From positions 1-64,000 of the forward strand of contig CAOJNB010000004.1 in NCBI GenBank assembly GCA_948439405.1: a stretch of DNA of 64,000 nucleotides. The letters are read 5' to 3'. The notes under the pieces were generated by a model. It ran no database searches. It was not told the origin of the DNA and saw only the letters and a list, made by a program, of their open reading frames with translations. The translations under genes and the position numbers were made by a program. Positions 7,724 through 20,936 of this stretch are shown in pieces. Numbering within the stretch: position 1 is the stretch's first letter; each line of letters opens with the position of its first letter. Origin of the DNA: an uncultured Coriobacteriaceae bacterium (lineage in GTDB: Bacteria; Actinomycetota; Coriobacteriia; Coriobacteriales; Atopobiaceae).

Positions 7724-8578
7724 GTGGCGCGCGAGCTGCGCGGCGCGCCCGTCGCCGCCGAGATCACCGAGGACGTCGCCCGCCGCGCCGAGGCGCTCCG
7801 CGCCCGCGGCGTCGAGCCGTGCCTGGCCGTGGTGCGCGTGGGCGAGCGCGAGGACGACCTCTCCTACGAGCGCGGCGCGACCAAGCGCTGCGAGCGGGCC
7901 GGCGTGGCGATGCGGCGCGTGCTGCTCGCGTCCGACTGCTCGCAGGAGGAGCTGCTCGAGGCGATCGGCGAGCTCAACCGCGACGAGTCCGTTCACGGCG
8001 TCCTCATGTTCCGCCCGCTGCCGGCGCACCTCGACGAGCGCGCCGCCTGCGCGGCGCTCGACCCCGCCAAGGACGTGGACTGCTCGACCCACGAGTCGCT
8101 CTACGGCGTGCTCGCCGGCGAGCCGGTGGGCTTCGCGCCGTGCACGGCCGAGGCCTGCGTCGAGCTGGCCCTCCGCTCGGGCGTGGGGCTCTCCGGCGCG
8201 CGCGTCACCGTCGTGGGCCGCTCGCTCGTCGTGGGGCGCCCGGTCTCGCTGATGCTGCAGCGCCTCGACGCCACCGTGACGATGTGCCACACCCGCACCC
8301 GCGACCTGGCAGCGTGCTGCCGCGAGGCCGACCTGCTGGTCGTGGCCGCGGGGCACCCGGGTACGGTGGGGGCCGACTGCGTGCGGCCCGGCCAGGTCGT
8401 GATCGACGTGGGCATCAACTGGGACGAGGCGGCCGGCCGGCTCGTGGGCGACGTGGACTTCGCGGCCGCGGAGCCCGTCGTCGAGGCGATCACCCCGGTG
8501 CCGGGCGGGGTCGGCTCGCTGACCACCGCCGTGCTCGTCCGCCACGTGGTCGAGGCCGCCGAGCGCGCGGCCCGCTAG
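7724..8578 (+). CDS. folD: methylene-THF dehydrogenase (FolD), probably lacking cyclohydrolase activity
   Basis: The Rossmann half carries VVGRSLVVGRPVSLML, VIDVGIN and the closing ITPVPGGVG, all FolD signatures, so oxidation of 5,10-methylene-THF is well supported. The catalytic Tyr of the YxxxK motif is present (Tyr48, SYERGATKR), but the lysine position is Ala52, and the partner glutamine of the xQLPLP motif is Arg97 (FRPLPAH). In bifunctional FolD both residues are needed for the cyclohydrolase step. It starts at GTG 7724, three bases after the fchA stop, with GGGGGAGGGG upstream. 284 residues is normal. The activity split between FolD and FchA is inference. Confidence 0.93.
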   Translation: MARELRGAPVAAEITEDVARRAEALRARGVEPCLAVVRVGEREDDLSYERGATKRCERAGVAMRRVLLASDCSQEELLEAIGELNRDESVHGVLMFRPLPAHLDERAACAALDPAKDVDCSTHESLYGVLAGEPVGFAPCTAEACVELALRSGVGLSGARVTVVGRSLVVGRPVSLMLQRLDATVTMCHTRTRDLAACCREADLLVVAAGHPGTVGADCVRPGQVVIDVGINWDEAAGRLVGDVDFAAAEPVVEAITPVPGGVGSLTTAVLVRHVVEAAERAAR

Positions 8579-8582
8579 CGCC

Positions 8583-9851
8583 GTGGCGCCCGAGCCCGCC
8601 TTCCGCCCGCTCCCCTACGGGGAGTGCCTCGCGCGCCTCGCCGCGATCCCGCGCGAGGGGACGAGCCCCAGGCTCGAGGCCACCTGCGAGATGCTCGACG
8701 AGGTGGGGCGCCCCGAGACCCTCTGCGACTTCCTGCAGGTCGCCGGTACGAACGGCAAGACGTCCACGGCGCGCTTCTGCGCCGCAATCCTGCGCGGCCG
8801 TGGGCTGCGCGTCGGGCTCTTCACCTCGCCGCACCTCGTGAGCCCCACCGAGCGCATGGAGGTCGACGGCGAGCCCGTCTCCGAGGCCGACTTCGCCCGG
8901 GCCGTCTCCGTCGCCCTCGCGGCGGCCGAGCACGTGAACGCGAACCGCGCGGCCGCGGGCCTCGAGCCCTACGACGTCACCGAGTTCGCGGTCCTCACCG
9001 TTGCCGCGACGCGGCTGTTCTGCGAGGCCGGCTGCGACGTCGCCGTGCTCGAGGTGGGGATGGGGGGCAGGTGGGACCCCACCACCGCCGTCGTGCCGCG
9101 GGTCTCGGCCGTCACCGGCATCGGGCTCGACCACACCCGGGTGCTCGGCGACACGCTCGAGCTGATCGCGGCCGAGAAGGCCGGCGTGATACGCCGCGGC
9201 GTCGCCTGCGTGCTCGGCCCGGGCGCCCTCGAGCCCGCCTCGGTCGCCGCCGTGATGCGCGCCCGCTGCGCCAAGCAGGGCGTCGTGGCCCGGGAGGTGG
9301 GGGAGGCCGACGTCGCCCGCGCGACCCCGCTGTGCGCCGGACGTCCCGCCTACCAGCGCGCCAACGTGGCCGTGGCCCTCGCCGTCTGCGAGGCCTATCT
9401 GGGGCGCCCGCTCGCGCCCGAGGAGGTCGCGGCCGACGTCGCGGTCTGCCCCACGCCGGGGCGCTTCGAGGAGCTGCGGCGCGACCCGCTCGTGCTCGTG
9501 GACGCCTCGCACAACCCCCAGGGCGTTGCCTCGTTCGTCGCGGCCTGCGCCGAGCGCTGGCCCGACCCCGCCGCCCGCCCGCTGCTGCTCGCGGCGATGC
9601 TCGCGGACAAGGACCACGCGGCGATGGCGCGGACCCTCGCCGGCGCCTTTCCGCGGGTGGCCGTGTGCGCGACCTCCTCGCCGCGCGCGCTGCCCGCCGC
9701 CGAGCTCGCCCGCGAGTTCGCCGCGGCCGGCCGCGCGCCCGAGCGCGCGTTCGGGACCGTCGCCGAGGCCGCCGAGGCCCTCGCGGGGGAATCGTATGCG
9801 GCCTGTGGTTCCGTGACCCTCGCCGGCGAGCTCGCGGCGCTGCTGCGCTAG
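8583..9851 (+). CDS. folC: folylpolyglutamate synthase / dihydrofolate synthase
   Basis: Mur-ligase-like enzyme that adds glutamate to dihydropteroate or to reduced folates. Evidence: the P-loop VAGTNGKTST (residues about 56-65), the folate loop FTSPHLVSPTERMEV, EVGMGGRWDPTTAV, ITGIGLDHTRVLGDTLELIA-type switch sequence, and DASHNPQG, which opens the C-terminal glutamate domain. The length of 422 residues is typical. It starts at GTG 8583, four bases after the folD stop, and ends the fhs operon, consistent with polyglutamylating the folates used by the three upstream enzymes. Confidence 0.94.
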   Translation: MAPEPAFRPLPYGECLARLAAIPREGTSPRLEATCEMLDEVGRPETLCDFLQVAGTNGKTSTARFCAAILRGRGLRVGLFTSPHLVSPTERMEVDGEPVSEADFARAVSVALAAAEHVNANRAAAGLEPYDVTEFAVLTVAATRLFCEAGCDVAVLEVGMGGRWDPTTAVVPRVSAVTGIGLDHTRVLGDTLELIAAEKAGVIRRGVACVLGPGALEPASVAAVMRARCAKQGVVAREVGEADVARATPLCAGRPAYQRANVAVALAVCEAYLGRPLAPEEVAADVAVCPTPGRFEELRRDPLVLVDASHNPQGVASFVAACAERWPDPAARPLLLAAMLADKDHAAMARTLAGAFPRVAVCATSSPRALPAAELAREFAAAGRAPERAFGTVAEAAEALAGESYAACGSVTLAGELAALLR

Positions 9852-9858
9852 GATGCTC

Positions 9859-9864
9859 TAGAAT
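9859..9864 (+). promoter_or_regulatory. -10 element (TAGAAT)
   Basis: TAGAAT lies 70 bases upstream of the zinc-ribbon membrane protein start at 9934, directly after the folC stop codon. No strong -35 is visible. Confidence 0.4.
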
Positions 9865-9933
9865 CGTGAGGGTCGCGTACGGGGCGCGTCGGGTCCCGTG
9901 CTTCGCGAGACACCGTAAGGAGCGTGGACGCCC

Positions 9934-10365
9934 ATGTCCGATCTGATCGGCCAACTCATCACGCCTGAGGTCCGCATGGTCCTCTACCTGCTCGTGGCCT
10001 ACGTCGTCATCCTCTACATCCTCTCGATCGTCTACGTGATCCGCGACGCCCAGCGCCGCGGCGCCGAGCCCTGGTGGCTGTGGGCGATCATCTCCGTGAT
10101 CCCGGGCATCGGGCTGCTGGCCTACGTGATCCTGCGCCCGAGCTCCTACCTCGTGGACCGCGAGGAGCAGGACCTCGACATCGCTCTGCGCGAGCACCAG
10201 CTCTCGCACTACGGGATCTGCCCGAAGTGCGGCACGCCGATCGACCGCGACTTCGTCGTGTGCCCCATCTGCAACACCCAGGTGCGCAACGTCTGCCCCA
10301 CCTGCCACCGCCCGCTCAACGCGGACTGGAAGGTGTGCCCGTACTGCCGCACCCACATCGCCTAG
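9934..10365 (+). CDS. membrane protein with C-terminal double zinc ribbon
   Basis: The 143-residue protein has two N-terminal membrane segments (residues about 15-37 and 48-68), the second with the WWLWAIISVIPGIG pattern of PLDc_N-like small membrane domains. A charged linker leads to two cytosolic zinc ribbons with eight cysteines at 96/99, 110/113, 121/124 and 135/138. Such proteins are common in actinobacteria but have no assigned function. It has its own -10 element and a strong terminator downstream, so it is probably a single-gene unit. The start ATG at 9934 follows GTAAGGAGCGTGG. Function unknown; topology is well supported. Confidence 0.85.
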   Translation: MSDLIGQLITPEVRMVLYLLVAYVVILYILSIVYVIRDAQRRGAEPWWLWAIISVIPGIGLLAYVILRPSSYLVDREEQDLDIALREHQLSHYGICPKCGTPIDRDFVVCPICNTQVRNVCPTCHRPLNADWKVCPYCRTHIA

Positions 10366-10391
10366 CTCCTCGGAGCGCACAGGAACGTTAC

Positions 10392-10418
10392 GGCCGGGGC
10401 CCCGCGGGGGCCCCGGCC
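10392..10418 (+). terminator. 12-bp GC hairpin after zinc-ribbon gene
   Basis: GGCCGGGGCCCC (10392-10403), loop GCG, then GGGGCCCCGGCC (10407-10418). It lies between two genes on the same strand, just before the ilvA -10 element. No T-run follows. Confidence 0.6.
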
Positions 10419-10430
10419 CCGTTCGCGGGG

Positions 10431-10436
10431 TAAGAT
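10431..10436 (+). promoter_or_regulatory. -10 element of threonine ammonia-lyase gene
   Basis: TAAGAT followed by GGG, 41 bases ahead of the chosen ATG. It comes directly after the upstream terminator hairpin, as expected for an independent transcription start. Confidence 0.45.
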
Positions 10437-10476
10437 GGGCCCCATGCGTGACGTCGCGGAGGAAAGGGAGGCGCGC

Positions 10477-11697
10477 ATGCCCGAGATGCTGACGCTGGAC
10501 GCGTTCGAGGAGGCGGCCGACCGGGTCGCCGAGGTGACCCTCGAGACCAAGCTCATCCAGAGCCCCTACTTCAGCGAGCAGACGGGCAACCGCGTCTTCC
10601 TGAAGCCGGAGAACCTCCAGCGCACCGGCGCCTACAAGATCCGCGGCGCCTACTACAAGGTCTCCACCCTCACGGACGAGGAGCGCGCCCGCGGGCTCGT
10701 GACGGCGTCCGCCGGCAACCACGCCCAGGGCGTCGCCACCGCGGCGCGCCTGCGCGGCTGCAAGGCCGTGATCGTGATGCCGGAGACCACCCCCTACCTC
10801 AAGGTGGAGCGCACCCGCGCCCTCGGCGCCGAGGTGGTGCTGCACGGCAACGTCTACGACGAGGCCTACGACCACGCCGTCGCGCTCGCCGAGGAGCACG
10901 GCTACACGATGGTGCACCCCTTCAACGACCTCGGCGTCGCCACGGGCCAGGGCACCATCGCGATGGAGATCGTGCGCGAGATGCCGCTCGTGGACTACAT
11001 CCTCGTCCCCGTGGGCGGCGGCGGGCTGGCCACGGGCGTCTCCACCCTCGCGAAGCTGCTCAACCCCAACATCAAGGTGATCGGCGTGGAGCCCGCCGGC
11101 GCGGCGAGCCTCACCGCGGCGCTCGAGGCGGGCCACCCGGTGCGCCTGCCGGCCGCCAACACCATCGCCGACGGCACGGCCGTGCTCGAGGTCGGCGACC
11201 GGGTCTACCCCTACCTCGCGGAGAACCTCGACGACGTCATCACGATCGAGGACGACGAGCTCATCGACGCCTTCCTCGACATGGTCGAGAACCACAAGAT
11301 GGTCGTGGAGAACTCGGGCCTGCTCACCGTGGCGGCCCTGCACCACCTGGGCTTCTCGGGCAGGCGCGTGGTGAGCATCCTGTCGGGCGGCAACATGGAC
11401 GTGATCACGATGAGCTCGGTGGTCCAGCACGGCCTGATGCGCCGCGACCGCGTCTTCACCCTCTCCGTGAAGCTCCCGGACCGCCCCGGCGAGCTCGTGC
11501 GCGTCGCGCAGACGATCGCCGAGGCCAACGGCAACGTCATCCGCCTCGACCACAACCAGTTCGTCTCCACGAACCGCAACGCCGCGGTGGAGCTCAAGGT
11601 CACCGTCGAGGCCTTCGGCACCGAGCACAAGCGCCAGATCCTCGCGGCGCTCGAGCGCGTCGGGCTCGAGCCGACCGTCGTCCAGACCCAGGTCTAG
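10477..11697 (+). CDS. ilvA: threonine ammonia-lyase with C-terminal ACT domain
   Basis: PLP fold-type II enzyme deaminating threonine to 2-oxobutanoate for isoleucine synthesis or catabolism. Visible features are LKPENLQRTGAYKIRGA with the PLP lysine, SAGNHAQGVA for phosphate contact, the glycine loop PVGGGGLATG and a short C-terminal ACT domain (KLPDRPGELVRVAQTIAEA, about 75 residues). A single ACT domain and 406 residues fit the IlvA1/TdcB-like short form rather than the ~510-residue E. coli IlvA. The start is set at ATG 10477, which has AAAGGGAGG upstream; an in-frame ATG at 10435 overlaps the -10 element and is unlikely. Confidence 0.92.
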   Translation: MPEMLTLDAFEEAADRVAEVTLETKLIQSPYFSEQTGNRVFLKPENLQRTGAYKIRGAYYKVSTLTDEERARGLVTASAGNHAQGVATAARLRGCKAVIVMPETTPYLKVERTRALGAEVVLHGNVYDEAYDHAVALAEEHGYTMVHPFNDLGVATGQGTIAMEIVREMPLVDYILVPVGGGGLATGVSTLAKLLNPNIKVIGVEPAGAASLTAALEAGHPVRLPAANTIADGTAVLEVGDRVYPYLAENLDDVITIEDDELIDAFLDMVENHKMVVENSGLLTVAALHHLGFSGRRVVSILSGGNMDVITMSSVVQHGLMRRDRVFTLSVKLPDRPGELVRVAQTIAEANGNVIRLDHNQFVSTNRNAAVELKVTVEAFGTEHKRQILAALERVGLEPTVVQTQV

Positions 11698-11723
11698 CGT
11701 CGCCCCCAGGCACCGGTCCCACG

Positions 11724-11753
11724 GGCGCCCCGCCGCATCCGCGGCGGGGCGCC
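11724..11753 (+). terminator. 13-bp perfect hairpin after ilvA
   Basis: GGCGCCCCGCCGC (11724-11736), loop ATCC, then GCGGCGGGGCGCC (11741-11753), followed after a few bases by a short GTTT. It is located 26 bases after the ilvA stop. Confidence 0.7.
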
Positions 11754-11797
11754 TCCCTGCGTTTCCTCCGCATGCCGCCGCCCGACGCATGGGGTGG

Positions 11798-11806
11798 TGC
11801 CATAAT
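11798..11806 (+). promoter_or_regulatory. extended -10 promoter of thrS
   Basis: TGC-CATAAT followed by GGG, 57 bases before the thrS ATG. The leader is too short for a T-box or another attenuator of the usual size. Confidence 0.5.
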
Positions 11807-11862
11807 GGGAAGGCTATCCGCAGCACCAGCACACCGGACCACCGGACGAAGGGGCCATCCCC

Positions 11863-13626
11863 ATGAAGATCATCGACAACGAGGGCAACGTCTCCGCCTG
11901 CGCGCCGGAGGAGGAGCTCCACGTCATCCGCCACAGCGCCGCCCACGTGCTCGCCCAGGCGATCAAGCGCCTGTACCCCGAGGCGCACTTCGCCTACGGG
12001 CCCGCGACCGACGCCGGCTTCTACTACGACGTGGACCTCGGCGACGCCACCATCTCCGAGGACGACCTGCCGGCCATCGAGGACGAGATGCGCCGCATCG
12101 TCAAGGAGAACCTGCGCTTCGAGACCTTCGAGCTGCCGCGCGACGAGGCGGTGGCCCTCATGGAGGAGCGCGGCGAGAAGTACAAGGTCGAGCACATCGG
12201 CGACCTCGCGCCCGACGCGCGCATCACCTTCTTCAGGCAGGGCGACTACGTCGACATGTGCGTCGGCCCGCACGTCACCTACACCAAGGCCCTCAAGGCC
12301 TTCAAGCTCACCGGAGTCTCGGGCGCCTACTGGAAGGCCGACAAGAACAACAAGATGCTCACCCGCGTGAACGGCACGGCGTTCGCCACGAAGGCCGAGC
12401 TCGACGAGCACCTGCGCATGCTCGAGGAGGCCAAGCTGCGCGACCACCGCAGAATAGGCCGCGAGATGGACCTGTTCATGATGCGCGACGAGGCGCCGGG
12501 CTTCCCGTTCTTCCTGCCCAACGGCATGGTGCTCAAGAACGCGCTGCTCGACTACTGGCGCGAGATCCACCACGCCGCCGGCTACGTCGAGATCTCCACG
12601 CCCATGATCATGAGCAAGGAGCTGTGGAAGACCTCCGGCCACTGGGACCACTACAAGGACAACATGTACTCCACCGTCATCGATGACGAGGAGTACTGCA
12701 TCAAGCCCATGAACTGCCCGGGCGGCGTGCTCGTCTACGCCTCCAAGCCCCACAGCTATCGCGAGCTGCCCATCCGTGCCGGCGAGATCGGCCTGGTGCA
12801 CCGCCACGAGCTGCGCGGCGCCCTGCACGGCCTGTTCCGCGTGCGCTGCTTTAACCAGGACGACGCCCACCTGTTTGTGCGTCCCGACCAGCTGACCGAC
12901 GAGATCGTGGGCGTGGTCAACCTCATCGACTCCGTGTACCAAAAGTTTGGCTTTAAGTACCACGTTGAGCTTTCCACCCGCCCCGAGGACTCCATGGGTT
13001 CGGACGAGGACTGGGCGCGCGCCGAGGAGGGCCTGCGCACCGCTCTGGAGAAGCTGGGCATGGACTACGAGGTCAACGAGGGCGACGGCGCCTTCTACGG
13101 CCCCAAGATCGACTTCCACCTGGAGGACTCGCTGGGCCGCACCTGGCAGTGCGGCACGGTGCAGCTCGACTTCCAGATGCCGCAGAACTTCGACCTCGAG
13201 TACGTGGACGCCGACGGCGAGCGCAAGCGGCCCATCATGCTGCACCGCGTGGCCTTCGGCTCCATCGAGCGCTTCATCGGCATCCTGATCGAGCACTACG
13301 CGGGCAAGTTCCCCACCTGGCTCGCGCCGCTCCAGGTCAAGGTCCTGCCGGTCTCGGAGAAGAGCCGCGACTACGCCCGCGAGGTGGGGGCTGCCCTCGA
13401 CGCCGCCGGCATCCGCGTCAAGGTGGACGACCGCGACGAGAAGATCGGCTACAAGATCCGCGAGGCGCGCTCGACCGACCGCGTGCCCTACATGCTGATC
13501 CTGGGCGAGCAGGAGCGCGACGGCGGCTACGTCTCCGTGCGCGACCGCACGAACGAGACGCACCAGAGCACGCTCGCGGACTTCGTCGCGAGCGTGCGCG
13601 CCGAGATCGACGAGCGCCGCGGCTAG
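11863..13626 (+). CDS. thrS: threonyl-tRNA synthetase lacking the N-terminal TGS domain
   Basis: Class II synthetase charging tRNA-Thr. The editing domain is present ([10 protein letters not shown], an HxxxH motif, and later [10 protein letters not shown]). The catalytic core has the zinc ligands in MNCPGG, QDDAHLF and [13 protein letters not shown], and the C-terminal anticodon-binding domain begins near [15 protein letters not shown]. At 587 residues it is about 60 shorter than E. coli ThrRS: the protein starts right at the editing domain, and the promoter is only 57 bases upstream, leaving no room for the usual TGS domain. Start ATG 11863 follows GAAGGGG. A patch at about 12757-13047 uses T-ending codons (TTT, GTT, CTT, CGT) otherwise almost absent here. 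Confidence 0.96.
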
Positions 13627-13635
13627 GGGCCGCGC

Positions 13636-14379
13636 GTGAGCGGCGCCTGCGGGCCTTCGGCGAGACTCGCCCGCGAGCTCGCGCTCGGGCGCGCGCGGGT
13701 CGTCCTCGCGTCCCGCGAGGAGGTCCTCGAGGCCTGCGGGGACGCGGAGCCCTACGAGCCGCTGGGCGGCGTCCCGGTGCGTGCCCGCGACGGGCGGGAG
13801 CGCGCGGCGGCCGCGCACGCCGCGGGGCGCCCGCTCGTCGCCGACAACGCCCGCGCCACGCTGGCGCTCTCCGCGCCCTGCCTGCGCGGGGCCGACGTCC
13901 ACCTCGAGCTCCTCGATGCGGTCCCGGCGGGGGAGGGGCTCGCGCTCGTGGGCCTCTCCCGCGAGCTCTCCGCCGACCCTCCCGCGGCGCTCGCCGCCCT
14001 CCTCGACGACGCCCCCGCGCCCGGCGCGGAGCGCCTCGCGGCCGTGGCCGCCGGCCTGGGCGACCTCGCGGCCTCCGTGCGCGCCGCCTCGGACGCGGCC
14101 CGCGTCGCCGCCGAGTACCTGCGCTGCCATCCCGCCGTCGCCGAGGCGCGCTACCCGGGACTCGCCTGCGACCCCTGCAACGCGGAGGCGCGCCGCGCGC
14201 TGCACCACGGCTTCGGCCCCCTCGTCGACGTCCGCCTCGCCCGCGACCCGGGCTCCGACGCGGACCTGGGGCCCCTCGTGCCCGCAGGCGGCGGCTGGCG
14301 GCGGCTCGCCTGCCGTCCCGGCGACGCCCTCGCGCTCGTGGGGGAGCTCGAGGGGGCGCTCGCGCCGCTTGCCTCGTAA
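13636..14379 (+). CDS. degenerate Cys/Met-metabolism PLP-fold protein (probable pseudoenzyme)
   Basis: The 247-residue product resembles cystathionine gamma-synthase/lyase enzymes but is about 130-150 residues shorter. [15 protein letters not shown] aligns with the VDNTFxSP.. segment holding the PLP-binding Asp, and [19 protein letters not shown] and [12 protein letters not shown] match C-domain motifs (VAxFLxxHPxVxxVxYPGL, GFGAMLSF). At the invariant catalytic lysine (HSxTKYLxGH), this protein reads [13 protein letters not shown], with no lysine. The N-terminal third of the fold is also missing. It cannot form the usual aldimine, so a structural or binding role, or slow decay, is likely. GTG 13636 lies 9 bases after thrS, so the two are co-transcribed. 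Confidence 0.72.
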
Positions 14380-14419
14380 GGGGTTCGCCCGCACGCCCGC
14401 GGGAGGCGCCGCGGCGCGC

Positions 14420-14425
14420 TAGAAT
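14420..14425 (+). promoter_or_regulatory. -10 element of mntP-trp unit
   Basis: TAGAAT 48 bases before the mntP ATG. The short leader has no room for a yybP-ykoY manganese riboswitch. Confidence 0.4.
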
Positions 14426-14472
14426 CGGCTCCCATGCCCGATCCGGCCCGCGTCCCCGGGAGGGAGGAAGCG

Positions 14473-15048
14473 ATGGATCCCACGACGGCCTCCGCCGCGA
14501 TCGTCGAGGCGGTGCTCCTCGGCGTCGCCCTCGCGATGGACGCCATGGCGGTGACGCTCTCGAACTCGCTGTGCGAGCCGGACATGCCGCGCCCCAAGCG
14601 CCTCGCCATGCCCGTCGCCTTCGCCTGCTTCCAGACGCTCATGCCCGTGCTCGGCTACTGGGGCGGCACGCTCGTCGCGTCCCTCGTGGAGGCATACGCG
14701 GGCGTCGTCTCCCTCGCGGTCCTCGGCGTCGTGGGCGGCAGGATGGCCCTCGAGGCCCTCCGCGAGCTGCGGGAGCCCGAGCGCGCCTCCTGCGCGCGGC
14801 TCACCTGGCCCGCGATCCTGCTCGAGGCCGTCGCCACCTCCATCGACGCGCTCGTGGTGGGCGTCTCGCTCGCCGCGACCGGCGCCGACCTCGCCCTGAA
14901 CGCGGCGGCGATCGGCGTGACGACGCTCGCCTGCTGCCTCGCCGTGCTGCTCGCCGGCCGCGCCCTCGGGGAGCGCTTCGGGGCGCACGCGAAGGTGGTC
15001 GGCGGTATCATCCTCATCGTCATAGGTTTGCGGGCCTTCCTCTCCTGA
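14473..15048 (+). CDS. mntP: manganese efflux pump MntP
   Basis: Small polytopic membrane protein (191 residues, six predicted membrane helices) that exports Mn2+. The two DUF204 halves are visible: [19 protein letters not shown] and [19 protein letters not shown], each with the Asp that is conserved and functionally important in MntP, and the C-terminal [18 protein letters not shown]. The start is placed at ATG 14473, preceded by GGGAGGGAGGAAG; upstream in-frame ATG 14434 has no ribosome site. trpB follows after 41 bases containing a GC hairpin (15056-15077) that may modulate read-through. Confidence 0.9.
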
Positions 15049-15055
15049 GCCGTCC

Positions 15056-15077
15056 GGCTCGGCGGGTCCGCCGGGCC
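15056..15077 (+). other. intercistronic hairpin before trpB
   Basis: GGCTCGGCGG pairs with CCGCCGGGCC (one G-T pair) around a GT loop, ending a few bases before the trpB ribosome site GAGGGAGGCAGG. It could slow or stop transcription between mntP and trpB, or influence trpB translation. No T-run. Confidence 0.45.
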
Positions 15078-15089
15078 GAGGGAGGCAGG

Positions 15090-16284
<1,195 letters not shown>

Positions 16285-16292
<8 letters not shown>

Positions 16293-17049
16293 GATCGCGC
16301 GCGCCTTCGCGCGCCCGGGCTCCAAGGCCCTCGCGACGTTTCTGACCTGCGGACACCCGGACGTCGAGACGACGCTCTCCCTCGTCGCGGCCGTGTCCGC
16401 CGCCGGCGCCGACGTCGTGGTGCTCGGCATCCCGTTCTCCGACCCCACGATCGAGGGCCCCGTCCTGCAGGCCGCCAACGTGCGCGCCTGCGAGGCCGGC
16501 GTGACGACCGCCGACGTCATCTCGTGCGCCCGCCGCGTCCGCGAGGCCAGCGAGGTGCCCCTCGTCGTGATGGGCTACGCCAACGTCGTCTACTCCTACG
16601 GGATCGCCCGCTTCGCCGCCGACGCGGCCGAGGCCGGCTGCGACGCCGTGATCGTCTCCGACGTCCCCTTCGAGGAGTCCGAGGAGTTCTCCGTGCCCCT
16701 CGGCGAGGCGGGCCTGCGCCTCGTGCCGTTCGTGGCCCCGTCCACGCGCGACCGCACGCCCGAGGTGCTCTCGGCCGCGGCCGACCTCGTGGTGTGCGAG
16801 GCCTTCGCGCCCGGTGCCGCCGAGCACCTGCCCGACATGGCCGCGCGCGTGCGCGCGGCCTGCGACGTCCCCTGCGTCGCGGGCCTCGACGACCCGACGC
16901 CCGAGGGGGCGGCCCGCGCCGCGGCCCTCTGCGACGGCGTGCTGGTGGAGACCGGCGTGATGCGGATCGTCTCCGAGCGCGGCCGCGAGGCGCTGCCCGC
17001 GGTGCGCGAGCACGTCGCCGCCCTGGCGGACGCCGTGCACGGGGCGTGA
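16285..17049 (+). CDS. tryptophan synthase alpha-like protein with ablated active site
   Basis: It is recognisably Trp[44 protein letters not shown] and VSDVPFEES. Key residues are changed by alignment with enteric TrpA. The catalytic Glu49 is Val46 ([11 protein letters not shown] instead of ALELGVPFSDP), Asp60 is Glu57 (SDPTIEGP), the loop SRxGVTG is replaced by CEAFAPG, QGFGI becomes AGLDDP, and the phosphate site GSA becomes ETG. Cleavage of indole-glycerol phosphate is therefore unlikely, while the TrpB-facing regions persist. A role as an allosteric TrpB partner for indole salvage is inference; Chlamydia trachomatis offers a known parallel. Overlaps trpB by 8 bases; 254 residues. Confidence 0.85.
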
Positions 17050-18116
17050 TGGCGATGACCGAGGTTCGCTTCGCGACCATCGGGACGAGCGCGATCTGCG
17101 AGCGCTTCCTGGACGCCGTCGCGGCCACCGAGGGGTGCCGCTACGTCGCCTGCCACTCGCGCGACAGGGCGCGCGCCGAGCGCTTCGGCGCCGCCCACGG
17201 CGCGACCCGCTTCTTCGACGACCTGGGCGAGCTGGCGCGCTGCGACGAGGTCGACGCCGTCTACGTCGCCTCGCCGAACGCGCTGCACGCGCCCCAGGCG
17301 CTCCCGCTTGCGCGGGCCGGCAGGCACCTGCTCGTCGAGAAGACGTTCGCCTCCAACGAGGCGGAGGCCCGCCCCGTCTTCGAGGCCGCCCGCGAGGCGG
17401 GCGTCGTCTGCCTGGAGGCCATGCGCAACCTGCACACGCCCGGCTTCGCCAACGTCGAGCGCCTCGTGGGCGAGCTCGGCGAGGTCACCCAGGCCACCTT
17501 CCGCTTCGGCAAGATCACCTCGCGCATCCGCCGCCTCGAGGCCGGCGAGCGCGTGAGCCAATTCGACCCGGAGCTCTCCGAGGGCGCCCTGATGGACATG
17601 GGCGTCTACGTGGTGGAGCCCGCGGTGGCGCTCTTCGGGCGCCCGCGCCGCGTGCTCGCGAGCGCCGTGACGCGCGAGGTACCCTGGGAGGCCCCCGAGG
17701 GCTTCCGCACGACGGACCTCTCGGGCGCCGTGGTGCTCGACTACGGCGACAAGCTGGTAGACCTCAACTACAGCAAGGTCGCCGACGACCTGCTCGCCTC
17801 GCAGGTCGCGGGCAGGAGGGGCAGCCTCGTCTGGACCGAGCCGGGGGCACCGGCCGACGTGACGCTGCACCTGTGGAGCGACCGCCCGATGATCTACGGC
17901 AACGTGGACGCGGGGGAGAACCAGGTGGTCGAGGCCGACGTCCCCGAGAACGACATGCGCTGCGAGCTCGAGCTGTTCCTGGCCGCGGTGCGCGGCGAGG
18001 AGGACGCCCTCCGGCGCGTCGCGACCTGCGAGCGGGTCACGCTCGACTCGCTGGCCGTGATGGACGAGGTGCGCCGGCAGGTCGGCGTGCGCTTCCCGGC
18101 CGACCGGGACGGCTAG
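17049..18116 (+). CDS. Gfo/Idh/MocA-family oxidoreductase
   Basis: NAD(P)-dependent dehydrogenase of the glucose-fructose oxidoreductase family, 355 residues. The Rossmann start is TEVRFATIGTSAICERFLDA, the motif after the cofactor domain is LLVEKTFASN (normally EKP), and the C-terminal sheet domain begins near VTQATFRFGKI, with LMDMGVYVVEPA in the position of the family's D-xGxH motif; the histidine is not kept. Substrate cannot be told; relatives in Firmicutes are usually sugar or inositol dehydrogenases. Its ATG overlaps the trpA-like stop as TGATG, so translation is coupled, an unexpected association with tryptophan genes. Its stop shares CTAG with the convergent ABC ATPase gene. Confidence 0.88.
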   Translation: MAMTEVRFATIGTSAICERFLDAVAATEGCRYVACHSRDRARAERFGAAHGATRFFDDLGELARCDEVDAVYVASPNALHAPQALPLARAGRHLLVEKTFASNEAEARPVFEAAREAGVVCLEAMRNLHTPGFANVERLVGELGEVTQATFRFGKITSRIRRLEAGERVSQFDPELSEGALMDMGVYVVEPAVALFGRPRRVLASAVTREVPWEAPEGFRTTDLSGAVVLDYGDKLVDLNYSKVADDLLASQVAGRRGSLVWTEPGAPADVTLHLWSDRPMIYGNVDAGENQVVEADVPENDMRCELELFLAAVRGEEDALRRVATCERVTLDSLAVMDEVRRQVGVRFPADRDG

Positions 18117-18898
18117 TCCGCGGCGCCCTGCTCGTAGCGGGCGAGGAAGGCCCGGGTGCGCTCCTGGGTGGGGTGGGCGAGCACCTCGTCGGGGGTGCCC
18201 TGCTCCACGACGCGTCCGGCGTCCATGAAGACGACGCGGTCCGCCACGTCGCGGGCGAACGCCATCTCGTGGGTGACGATCACCATCGTCATGCGCTCCG
18301 CCGCGAGCTGGCGGATGACCTTGAGGACCTCGGCGGTGAGCTCGGGGTCGAGCGCCGAGGTGGGCTCGTCGAAGAAGAGGACCTCCGGGCGCATGGCGAG
18401 TGCGCGGGCGATCGAGACGCGCTGGCGCTGGCCGCCGGAGAGCTCGCAGGGGACCTTGTCCTCGTTGCCCTCGAGCCCCATGCGGGCGATGATGTCGCGG
18501 GCCGCCGCCTCCGCCTCGGCGCGGTCGCGCCCCTGCACGTGGACGGGCGCGTCGCTGACGTTGCGCAGGACCGTCCAGTGGGGGAAGAGGTTGTAGTCCT
18601 GGAAGACGAGGCCGAAGCGCGACTTGGCGGCGCGCAGGGTCCTCGCGTCCGCGTAGGCGGCGCGCCCTCCCTCGTCGCGGGCGACCTGGACGTCGCCGTA
18701 GGAGAGGCTGCCGCCGTCGAGGCGCTCGAGCAGCGTCGCGCAGCGCAGCAGCGTGGACTTGCCGCCGCCCGAGGCGCCGATGACCGCGACGACCTCGCCG
18801 CTCTCGACGTCGAGCGAGATGTCGTCGAGGACCTGGTTCTGGCCGAAGGCCTTCCGCGCGTGGCGGATGCTCACCACCGGGGCGCTCGTGTCTGCCAT
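18113..18898 (-). CDS. polar amino acid ABC transporter, ATP-binding protein
   Basis: Cytosolic ATPase of a GlnQ/HisP-type importer (261 residues). Motifs in order: Walker A GASGGGKST, Q-loop FQDYNLFPH, signature LSGGQRQR, Walker B VLFFDEPTSALDPE and the switch histidine in VTHEM. The family normally sits in one operon with its permease and binding protein. Here those genes are at 20947-22534 on the same strand, separated by an ABC-F gene running the other way, so the operon appears to have been split. Start ATG 18898 has GGAGGCAC upstream in its own strand. A palindrome, CCTCTAGGGTAGAGG, lies 36 bases before the start. Confidence 0.92.
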   Translation of the reverse strand: MADTSAPVVSIRHARKAFGQNQVLDDISLDVESGEVVAVIGASGGGKSTLLRCATLLERLDGGSLSYGDVQVARDEGGRAAYADARTLRAAKSRFGLVFQDYNLFPHWTVLRNVSDAPVHVQGRDRAEAEAAARDIIARMGLEGNEDKVPCELSGGQRQRVSIARALAMRPEVLFFDEPTSALDPELTAEVLKVIRQLAAERMTMVIVTHEMAFARDVADRVVFMDAGRVVEQGTPDEVLAHPTQERTRAFLARYEQGAAD

Positions 18899-18933
18899 GT
18901 GCCGTGCCTCCTGCCGGACTCGGGATGCGTGCC

Positions 18934-18948
18934 CCTCTAGGGTAGAGG
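18934..18948. promoter_or_regulatory. perfect palindrome upstream of ABC ATPase gene
   Basis: CCTCTAGGGTAGAGG, two 6-bp arms around GGG, 36-50 bases before the ATPase start on the minus strand, where a promoter or operator would lie. The minus strand reads TACCCT across it, a weak -10. Confidence 0.45.
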
Positions 18949-19028
18949 TCGGGCGCGCGACGGGCAAACCGCGGCCCGGCGCGACGGGCGCCGCGTCGCG
19001 CACCGTGCCACGAGGGCATAGGTCGCCT

Positions 19029-19115
19029 CTTGTGCGCGAGGAACTTCGTTTCGTTTCGGCCCTGGCGAGGCGTCCTGGGCAAACGCGGCGAAATCCGTTC
19101 GTACGCACAAGTCCC
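19029..19115. repeat. partial repeat cores (inverted pair)
   Basis: CTTGTGCGC at 19029-19037 and its inverted counterpart GTACGCACAAG at 19101-19111 belong to the same repeat family as 1321-1338. The second is preceded by AATCCGTTC, matching AATCCGTGC in the reverse complement of copy B. Confidence 0.55.
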
Positions 19116-19142
19116 TGCGCTCGGACCCTACGGACGACCGTC

Positions 19143-19225
19143 GGCGGAATCCCCGGGAACTTGTGCGCACGCACGGATTCGACCTGCGAAACCGCAGGTC
19201 GCGGACAAGGAATCGAGAAGGAGAC
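19143..19225 (-). repeat. dispersed intergenic repeat, copy B
   Basis: Read on the minus strand this repeats copy A at 1275-1357: a CCTTCT start, a perfect 8-bp hairpin GACCTGCG-GTTT-CGCAGGTC (plus-strand span 19181-19200), GTGCGTGCGCACAAGTTC and GGGGATTC. Most aligned positions are identical by eye. The T-run seen after the hairpin in copy A is absent here. Confidence 0.72.
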
Positions 19226-19296
19226 GATGCCTCCGCCCGTCCGCAGGGCGCGGGCGTGATCCGCGCGCGGGCCGGCAGCGCCCTCCCCGCGGCCCG

Positions 19297-19325
19297 TTGA
19301 CGCGTCCGCGGGGTCGGCGCATACT
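19297..19325 (+). promoter_or_regulatory. promoter of ABC-F gene (TTGACG-17-CATACT)
   Basis: TTGACG at 19297-19302 and CATACT at 19320-19325 with a 17-bp spacer, the best sigma-70-like promoter in the window. It gives a leader of about 130 bases before the ABC-F start, unusually long for this genome. Confidence 0.65.
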
Positions 19326-19402
19326 GTCTCCGTCGGCCGAGCGGGGAGGGTCCCCGCAGCGCGCGTGGCGGCGCCATCGGACCGAGGAGGGGAGCGCGGA
19401 CG

Positions 19403-19417
19403 GTGCGCATTCGCTAG
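19403..19417 (+). CDS. candidate leader mini-ORF (GTG, encodes M-R-I-R)
   Basis: GTG CGC ATT CGC TAG, with AGGAGGGG ending ten bases before the GTG. The peptide carries an Arg-x-Arg pattern, the type known from leader peptides of macrolide-responsive resistance genes. Its stop codon overlaps the left arm of the hairpin at 19416-19459 that hides the ABC-F ribosome site, so a stalled or terminating ribosome would open the start. Very short, so chance cannot be excluded. Confidence 0.45.
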   Translation: MRIR

Positions 19418-19459
19418 ACATCCTTCGATTCGACCCCACGACCACCAGACGGGATGTCT
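19416..19459 (+). promoter_or_regulatory. hairpin sequestering the ABC-F ribosome-binding site
   Basis: AGACATCC (19416-19423) pairs perfectly with GGATGTCT (19452-19459); the ABC-F ATG begins two bases later at 19461. The only ribosome-site-like bases, GGGA, lie within or beside the right arm. The left arm starts inside the mini-ORF stop codon. This geometry fits translational attenuation. Confidence 0.55.
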
Positions 19460-19460
19460 C

Positions 19461-20936
19461 ATGCAGCTCACGCTCTCCGGCGTCACCTACGCCTATCCCT
19501 CCGCGCCCGACCCCATCATCCGTGACCTCTCGATCGCCTTCCCCGAAGGCTGGACCGCGCTGCTCGGCGACAACGGCTGCGGCAAGACGACGCTCGCGAG
19601 GCTCGCCTGCGGCCTGCTCGCGCCGGACTCCGGCACGGTCACGGGCGGCCTCGTCTGCGCCATGTGCGAGCAGGACCCCCACGACGAGCCCGGGGGCCTC
19701 GCCGACTTCGCCCTGGACTACGGGCGCGAGGCCGTCGCGCTGCGTCGCTCGTTCCGCATCTCCGACGACATGCCCTGGCGCTTCGGCGAGCTGTCCTTCG
19801 GGGAGCGCAAGAAGCTCCAGGTCGCCGTCGCGCTGTGGCGGCGCCCCGACGTCCTCGTCGTCGACGAGCCCACGAACCACCTCGATGCCCCCGCGCGCGA
19901 GCAGCTCGCGGAGGCCCTGGTGCGCTTCCGCGGCGTCGGGATCCTGGTGAGCCACGACCGCGACCTGATCGACCGCCTCGCAGCGAGGTGCGCCTCGTTC
20001 GAGGCGGGAGGCGTCGTGGTGCGGCCCGGCGGCTACTCCGCCGCCCGCGGACAGGCCGAGCTCGAGCGCGCCTCCGCCCTGCGCCAGCGCGCCTCCGCCC
20101 GCCGCGAGCTCGCGCGCCTCTCCGCGGAGAAGGCCTCCCGCGCCGCCGAGGCGGCCCGAGCCGACGCCCGGCGGAGCAAGCGCCGCATCGATCCCAAGGA
20201 CCACGACGCCAAGGGCAGAATCGACCTGGCCCGCGTCAGCGGCAAGGACGGCCAGGCGGGCAGGCTCTCCTCGCAGATGGACGCCCGCGTCGCCTCGGCG
20301 CGGGCGCGCGCGGAGGGCGTCCGCGTCGAGCGGCGCTACGACGGCGACCTGTGGCTCGAGGCCGAGCCGAGCCCCCGCGGGGTGGTCGTGCGCGTGCCCG
20401 GGGGCCCGATTCCGTGCGGGGAGGGGACGCTCGAGGTCCCGGAGCTCTACGTGGGCAACACGGACCACGTCGGCATCGTGGGGCCCAACGGTGCCGGCAA
20501 GTCGACGCTCCTGCGCCACGTGCGCTCCCTGGTCCCCGACGACCTCGCGGTCCTCGAGGTCCCGCAGGAGCCCTCGCGCGAGCTGCGCGAGCGGACGATC
20601 CGGGAGGTGCGCGGGCTGTCCGACCGCGAGCGCGGACGGGTGCTCTCGACGGTCGCCCAGCTCAACTCGGAGCCCGGGAGGCTGCTCGAGGGCGACCGGG
20701 TGAGCCCGGGCGAGCTGAGGAAGCTCATGCTGGCGCTCGGCCTGCTGGCGAGGCCCGTCGTCGTCCTCATGGACGAGCCGACGAACCACCTCGACCTGCA
20801 CTCCGTCGAGGCGCTCGAGCGCTGCCTCGCGTCCTACCCGGGAGCCCTCCTGCTCGTGAGCCACGACCGCCGCTTCCTCGGGGCGTGCTGCTCGCGCACG
20901 TGGACGGTCGGGGAGGGGCGGGTCCGAGAGGCGTGA
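19461..20936 (+). CDS. ABC-F ATPase, probable ribosome-protection (antibiotic resistance) type
   Basis: Two ATP-binding cassettes in one 491-residue soluble chain without membrane segments. Cassette 1 has Walker A GDNGCGKT (36-43), signature LSFGERKK and Walker B VVDEPTNHLD (133-142). A charged interdomain linker follows (about 195-290, rich in Ala and Arg), then cassette 2 with GPNGAGKS (341-348), signature VSPGELRK and LMDEPTNHLD. Linker length and divergence of the two halves resemble the resistance subgroup that displaces antibiotics from the ribosome rather than housekeeping Uup/EttA; the drug class cannot be read. ATG 19461 is used; an in-frame GTG at 19365 would run through the leader. 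The gene interrupts an amino acid transporter operon. Confidence 0.88.
   Translation: MQLTLSGVTYAYPSAPDPIIRDLSIAFPEGWTALLGDNGCGKTTLARLACGLLAPDSGTVTGGLVCAMCEQDPHDEPGGLADFALDYGREAVALRRSFRISDDMPWRFGELSFGERKKLQVAVALWRRPDVLVVDEPTNHLDAPAREQLAEALVRFRGVGILVSHDRDLIDRLAARCASFEAGGVVVRPGGYSAARGQAELERASALRQRASARRELARLSAEKASRAAEAARADARRSKRRIDPKDHDAKGRIDLARVSGKDGQAGRLSSQMDARVASARARAEGVRVERRYDGDLWLEAEPSPRGVVVRVPGGPIPCGEGTLEVPELYVGNTDHVGIVGPNGAGKSTLLRHVRSLVPDDLAVLEVPQEPSRELRERTIREVRGLSDRERGRVLSTVAQLNSEPGRLLEGDRVSPGELRKLMLALGLLARPVVVLMDEPTNHLDLHSVEALERCLASYPGALLLVSHDRRFLGACCSRTWTVGEGRVREA

Follow-up and report, generated by a model that had tools for sequence, protein, structure and literature searches.

A lysine-free homologue of Cys/Met-metabolism PLP enzymes encoded behind thrS in Atopobiaceae

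The thrS locus of the window

The stretch of DNA analyzed here (64,000 nucleotides, hereafter the window) comes from an incomplete assembly of 1.54 Mb (86.7% complete). At positions 13,636 to 14,379 of the plus strand it contains an open reading frame of 247 amino acids with a GTG start, here called X, the start codon of which lies 9 bases past the stop of thrS (11,863 to 13,626, plus strand). The latter gene encodes a threonyl-tRNA synthetase (ThrRS) of the 587-aa type and is the conserved upstream partner of X, and on the other side X is followed by a gene at 14,434 to 15,048 (plus strand), named mntP-like (manganese efflux) by sequence resemblance. The GC contents at the three codon positions of X are 0.89, 0.60 and 0.96, so that its third positions (96% GC) resemble those of the neighboring genes. 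An earlier note on this DNA, made from the letters alone, had described an open frame with normal codon use and a 9-base link to thrS, and this description stands.

On the plus strand, the gap between thrS and X contains no promoter- or terminator-like site. Control of thrS and X by a riboswitch or T-box was rejected, because a scan of positions 8,000 to 20,000 gave no Rfam match at the gathering threshold. A read-through fusion of the two genes was also rejected; their frames are equal in the window but differ in many relatives. An antisense open frame of 1,760 aa (9,112 to 14,394, minus strand) covers both thrS and X, and is most likely a by-product of the high third-position GC content of the coding strand. 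In what follows, Atopobiaceae is denoted f1, the sister family f10 and further families f2, f3, f4 and f7, with g-codes for genera.

Fold and active-site residues of X

X was matched by the PF01053 profile over residues 53–197 (E-value = 3 × 10-6, 26.5 bits, slightly below the 27-bit cut-off), by the NCBIfam cystathionine gamma-synthase profile (E-value = 7.5 × 10-9) and, in sequence, by MetB of the PDB (3qhx; E-value = 8.7 × 10-9). The sister-family homologues tested scored 38.7–95.8 bits with PF01053, and all 31 members of an alignment of the window X with 30 homologues (A4) matched this profile at a threshold E of up to 1, far above chance. The nearest profile for most members tested was that of cystathionine gamma-lyase (PRK07582), with PRK07811 also near. 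The segment GFGPLVDV aligns with the expected segment of the Cys/Met enzymes, and the motif resemblance reported in the earlier note was thus confirmed. This segment belongs to a conserved C-terminal core (residues 131–201; 14,026 to 14,238, plus strand), recognized in alignments A1 and A3, which also comprises a linker helix and a CHPxVxxxRYPGL strand.

An AlphaFold model of X built from 33 family sequences had a pLDDT of 94.4 and a pTM of 0.88. All of the PDB matches listed for this model were Cys/Met enzymes of PLP fold-type I, the best being cystathionine gamma-lyase/synthase; Foldseek gave an E-value of 4.7 × 10-15 and a TM of 0.74 against 3qi6, and structural alignment (VIA) against 7ba4 gave a Z of 22.4 and an rmsd of 2.9 over 240 residues. 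Because the 238–240 aligned residues of the model correspond to enzyme residues from about 23–52 to about 390, X is a compacted, near-whole fold that has lost the N-terminal arm and has deletions within both domains. The previous idea that 130–150 N-terminal residues had gone as one block was therefore not upheld. In short, the large- and small-domain fold of the PLP fold-type I Cys/Met enzymes is retained in the predicted structure of X.

The catalytic positions were read by alignment against 12 intact enzymes, in which the roles of these residues are well established. The position of the PLP-binding lysine (ESLTK/HSATK motif) is occupied in X by Ala95 (13,918 to 13,920, plus strand), as had been noticed earlier; it is Arg in 17 of the 18 f10 members, and in f1 the alignment shows Ala, Asp, a different residue or a gap there, never Lys. 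No aligned homologue covering this position has the lysine, against 12 of 12 enzymes. Moreover, the whole 247-residue protein has no lysine at all, so that a PLP internal aldimine is impossible. The Ser of the phosphate-binding loop (SGxxA) and the PLP-stacking Tyr, both found in 12 of 12 enzymes, are lost in X and its family. By contrast, two residues of the pocket are kept. Asp70 of the VADN motif (13,843 to 13,845, plus strand), which is the counterpart of the enzyme Asp contacting the PLP pyridine nitrogen, is kept in 18 of 18 sister-family and 29 of 31 long Atopobiaceae homologues. Arg223 (14,302 to 14,304, plus strand), which aligns with the Arg that binds the substrate alpha-carboxylate, is kept in 17 of 18 f10 members and 27 of 31 long f1 members; the 24 short forms described below all lack it.

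X thus resembles the Cys/Met enzymes (PF01053) in descent, fold (Z 22), the VDN Asp and the YPGL and GFG motifs, and the long forms in the carboxylate Arg as well, whereas it differs from them in lacking the PLP lysine, phosphate loop, stacking Tyr and N-terminal arm, in its length (247 aa versus about 385 aa), in the replacement of GFGG by GFGP, and in a conserved Cys before HP, which occurs in every long f1 member. A universal metal site formed by the conserved Cys and His was rejected, as each of the two occurs in just 11 of the 18 f10 members. Despite its descent, X is not filed as a Cys/Met enzyme because the defining catalytic features fail; the absence of any lysine excludes PLP-enzyme catalysis by X.

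Distribution, selection and history of the thrS–X locus

Of 140 Atopobiaceae genomes searched with an X profile, 136 gave a match. Some of these matches are true Cys/Met enzymes, and from the match list X itself is estimated to be present in roughly 120 or more of the 140. Olsenella, Tractidigestivibacter and Parafannyhessea are among the named Atopobiaceae with homologues, and X is conserved across dozens of genera. The search also detected X in f3 and in f10, where its length, as delimited here, is about 270–460 aa (mostly 340–410 aa). The matches in f2 were mostly weak or enzyme-like only, and in f7 a more diverged X-like ORF of 287 aa lies behind thrS. X was undetected in a few thrS-bearing genomes (G018, G054 and G250). 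Most f10 proteins (L158–L170) carry a strongly conserved extra C-terminal tail, DSLDQALRLFCNPPEP, which is found neither in the enzymes nor in Atopobiaceae X and is possibly a binding motif.

At 54 distinct loci of f1, thrS is in view; at 44 of these, X lies within 100 bp of it on the same strand (median gap 12 bp), and at 13 of the 44 the two genes abut or overlap. In f10, X is within 300 bp of thrS in 11 of 15 loci, and in f3 (G034) it is not adjacent to thrS. One extra gene separates thrS and X in most members of genus g8; this gene (L075, L082, L083, L085 and L115) is conserved, about 190–310 aa long, and has repeats such as AKPYVDQAAAA.

Pairwise dN/dS values (NG86) were calculated in five groups. 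The medians were 0.20 (g50), 0.22 (short forms of g4, 136 pairs), 0.25 and 0.21 (f10) and 0.33 (g8), against 1.37–1.63 for a +1-frame control; the absolute values are rough because NG86 ignores codon bias, which leaves the contrast with the control unaffected. By region, the C-terminal core gave 0.14–0.23 versus 0.24–0.40 for the N-terminal part, and X as a whole evolves much faster than thrS. Judged by these substitution rates, X is under purifying selection. Neither of the outcomes that the earlier note had named as refuting, a lack of similarity to the PLP type I fold or neutral decay, was seen, and the fold, the dN/dS values and the retention across dozens of genera all support its suggestion that X is a maintained pseudoenzyme and not fresh junk.

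In some f1 genera (g4, g48, g19 and others), X is only about 101–125 aa long. The predicted structure of a short form (pLDDT 93.8) corresponds to the C-terminal small domain of the Cys/Met enzymes over 96–98 residues (Z up to 11.7, 98 residues), and the whole PLP domain, including the active-site half, is missing. These short forms make up one clade with support of 100/99 in a tree of few columns from which g19 was left out, and repeated independent truncation was therefore rejected. They are still located behind thrS and still selected (dN/dS 0.22), which indicates that the small domain either carries the conserved function or is sufficient for it. This C-terminal domain is the most constrained part of X and is able to persist alone. 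The term "remnant" used in the earlier note undersells a conserved, thrS-tied family, some members of which now consist of a stand-alone small domain.

The genes beyond X vary between genera, mntP excepted. It follows X in the window, as does its homologue at 14 f10 loci, and in an f4 genome without X it comes directly 3' of thrS, which suggests an old order of thrS–X–mntP; in most Atopobiaceae, mntP is not adjacent to X. There are two types of ThrRS, of about 587 aa and about 650–720 aa (L230–L241 and L176), which are about 47–50% identical and alternate among Coriobacteriales families, even at the same locus. In most f1 and f10 genomes, the thrS gene preceding X encodes the common 587-aa type; in g19, g83 and f7 it encodes the other one. 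Trees indicate that thrS and X were exchanged partly independently, the window thrS being close to f10 and the window X not. The window ThrRS (11,863 to 13,626) shares about 86% identity with f10 ThrRS but only about 72% with the ThrRS of another genome in the same genus (L067), which suggests that thrS was exchanged horizontally and X stayed where it was. In the genome G133 (genus g50, L205), a short X of the g4 type follows a thrS of the genome's own g50 type, and G103 (genus g4, L197) has a long X; from these two cases, the thrS–X locus appears to recombine.

Possible roles of X

Because X has been kept in the same place, under selection, in nearly all of the related bacteria of gut, rumen and mouth, a new function other than catalysis is probable. 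We regard X as a thrS-coupled, catalytically dead family derived from a Cys/Met enzyme, with a binding role for which ThrRS is the likeliest partner (probability about 0.6). As to how this would have come about, a PLP enzyme of Cys/Met metabolism may have settled directly 3' of thrS in an ancestor of several Coriobacteriales families. X would act by binding and not by chemistry, through a surface probably located on the small-domain face made by the YPGL/GFGP segment, and co-translation with ThrRS would match the levels of the two proteins. ThrRS or the threonylation machinery would be the likeliest partner, with X as a stabilizing or regulatory accessory subunit. The specific proposal of a binding protein that is translated together with ThrRS and directed to ThrRS or that machinery is tentative; and we are similarly guarded about the full history, in which a PLP enzyme captured behind thrS lost catalysis and was whittled down in Coriobacteriales to a dedicated ThrRS accessory or regulatory subunit of about 100 residues. 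In favor of a coupling to thrS, the linkage holds even beside the very different ThrRS of g19, g83 and f7, and it is kept where the genes further on change. The partly separate histories of thrS and X, together with the two types of ThrRS, argue against a highly specific interface between the two proteins. The faster evolution of X than of thrS, its position away from thrS in f3 and the few thrS-bearing genomes in which it was undetected also count against this reading.

Co-expression or an inherited position may be all that the linkage of thrS and X reflects. In a rival explanation, the function of X would be unrelated to threonylation, and the site behind thrS would be a stable promoter or operon context inherited together with mntP from the ancestral thrS–X–mntP order. 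The placement of mntP after X in the window and the sister family, and directly after thrS in f4, is consistent with this explanation, as is the exchange of thrS while X stayed, and it has a real, if minor, chance of being correct. However, mntP is away from X in most Atopobiaceae, and yet thrS and X remain tightly linked and often overlap.

An amino-acid sensor, in which the dead pocket binds a small amino acid via the carboxylate Arg and reports to the thrS operon or ThrRS, is favored by the retention of this Arg (17 of 18 f10 and 27 of 31 long f1 members) and of the VDN Asp, and by the location of X next to an amino-acid-related gene. This role is nevertheless unlikely for the family, since in all 24 short forms both the Arg and the other pocket half are gone, and these forms are still selected and linked to thrS, although it is possible that a sensor role is restricted to the long forms.

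The fold itself suggests another partner, namely the cell's own intact Cys/Met enzyme, of which X would be a regulatory or structural subunit. The precedent is LCB1/SPTLC1, the lysine-less subunit of serine palmitoyltransferase, which pairs with its catalytic homologue LCB2 and, like X, is a retained PLP-enzyme homologue without the PLP lysine and other catalytic residues (PMC3794620). The full-length paralogue that the earlier note had suggested looking for is indeed present elsewhere in the window genome (G000 contig C11, 384 bits) and bears the lysine. However, LCB1 has a catalytic homologue as its partner, whereas X is linked to thrS, is unlinked to any Cys/Met-enzyme gene, and persists without an intact Cys/Met enzyme: three genomes of genus g10 (G010, G040 and G041; 96–99% complete) have X and no full-length PF01053 enzyme, and G030, with X or an X-like gene, likewise has no full-length Cys/Met enzyme. 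An obligate role of this kind was accordingly rejected as a general explanation, and with short forms that lack the PLP domain, such a subunit is improbable. The same three near-complete Atopobiaceae genomes appear to be without any full-length Cys/Met PLP enzyme.

Some pseudoenzymes may act through migrated residues (PMC10211241), but a catalyst of changed chemistry is very improbable here, where the window X has no lysine, the phosphate loop and stacking Tyr are gone, and the short forms are without the active-site half. The weak Pfam score of the window copy (26.5 versus 27 bits) and its strongly reduced length might recall a decaying pseudogene or a chance frame in GC-rich DNA, a view that is hardly credible and was rejected on the dN/dS of about 0.2 against a frame control above 1.3, the confident fold, and conservation with open frames across dozens of genera.

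X is similar to pseudoenzymes in general in that the fold is conserved and the catalytic residues are gone, and a review of them describes no PLP-fold or tRNA-synthetase-linked case (PMC10211241). Within the open-licence literature, no paper on a thrS-linked gene in Coriobacteriia was found. As far as the open literature was searched, three features are undescribed: the linkage to thrS, the retention of X where no catalytic homologue exists, and the shrinkage to a lone small domain.

For annotation, it should be kept in mind that X genes match the profiles of cystathionine gamma-synthase/lyase and cannot be those enzymes. To our knowledge, few cases of conserved, lysine-free PLP fold-type I homologues have been described, and the thrS locus offers a natural series of them, all under selection, with lengths of about 400 aa (the full fold without the PLP lysine), about 250 aa and about 100 aa (the small domain). 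X is a clear system for studying how an enzyme fold turns into a binding module. It also suggests that common Actinomycetota of the gut, rumen and mouth possess an unrecognized translation-linked protein, which, if X is indeed a subunit of ThrRS, would be a new kind of tRNA-synthetase partner made from a domain of a PLP enzyme.
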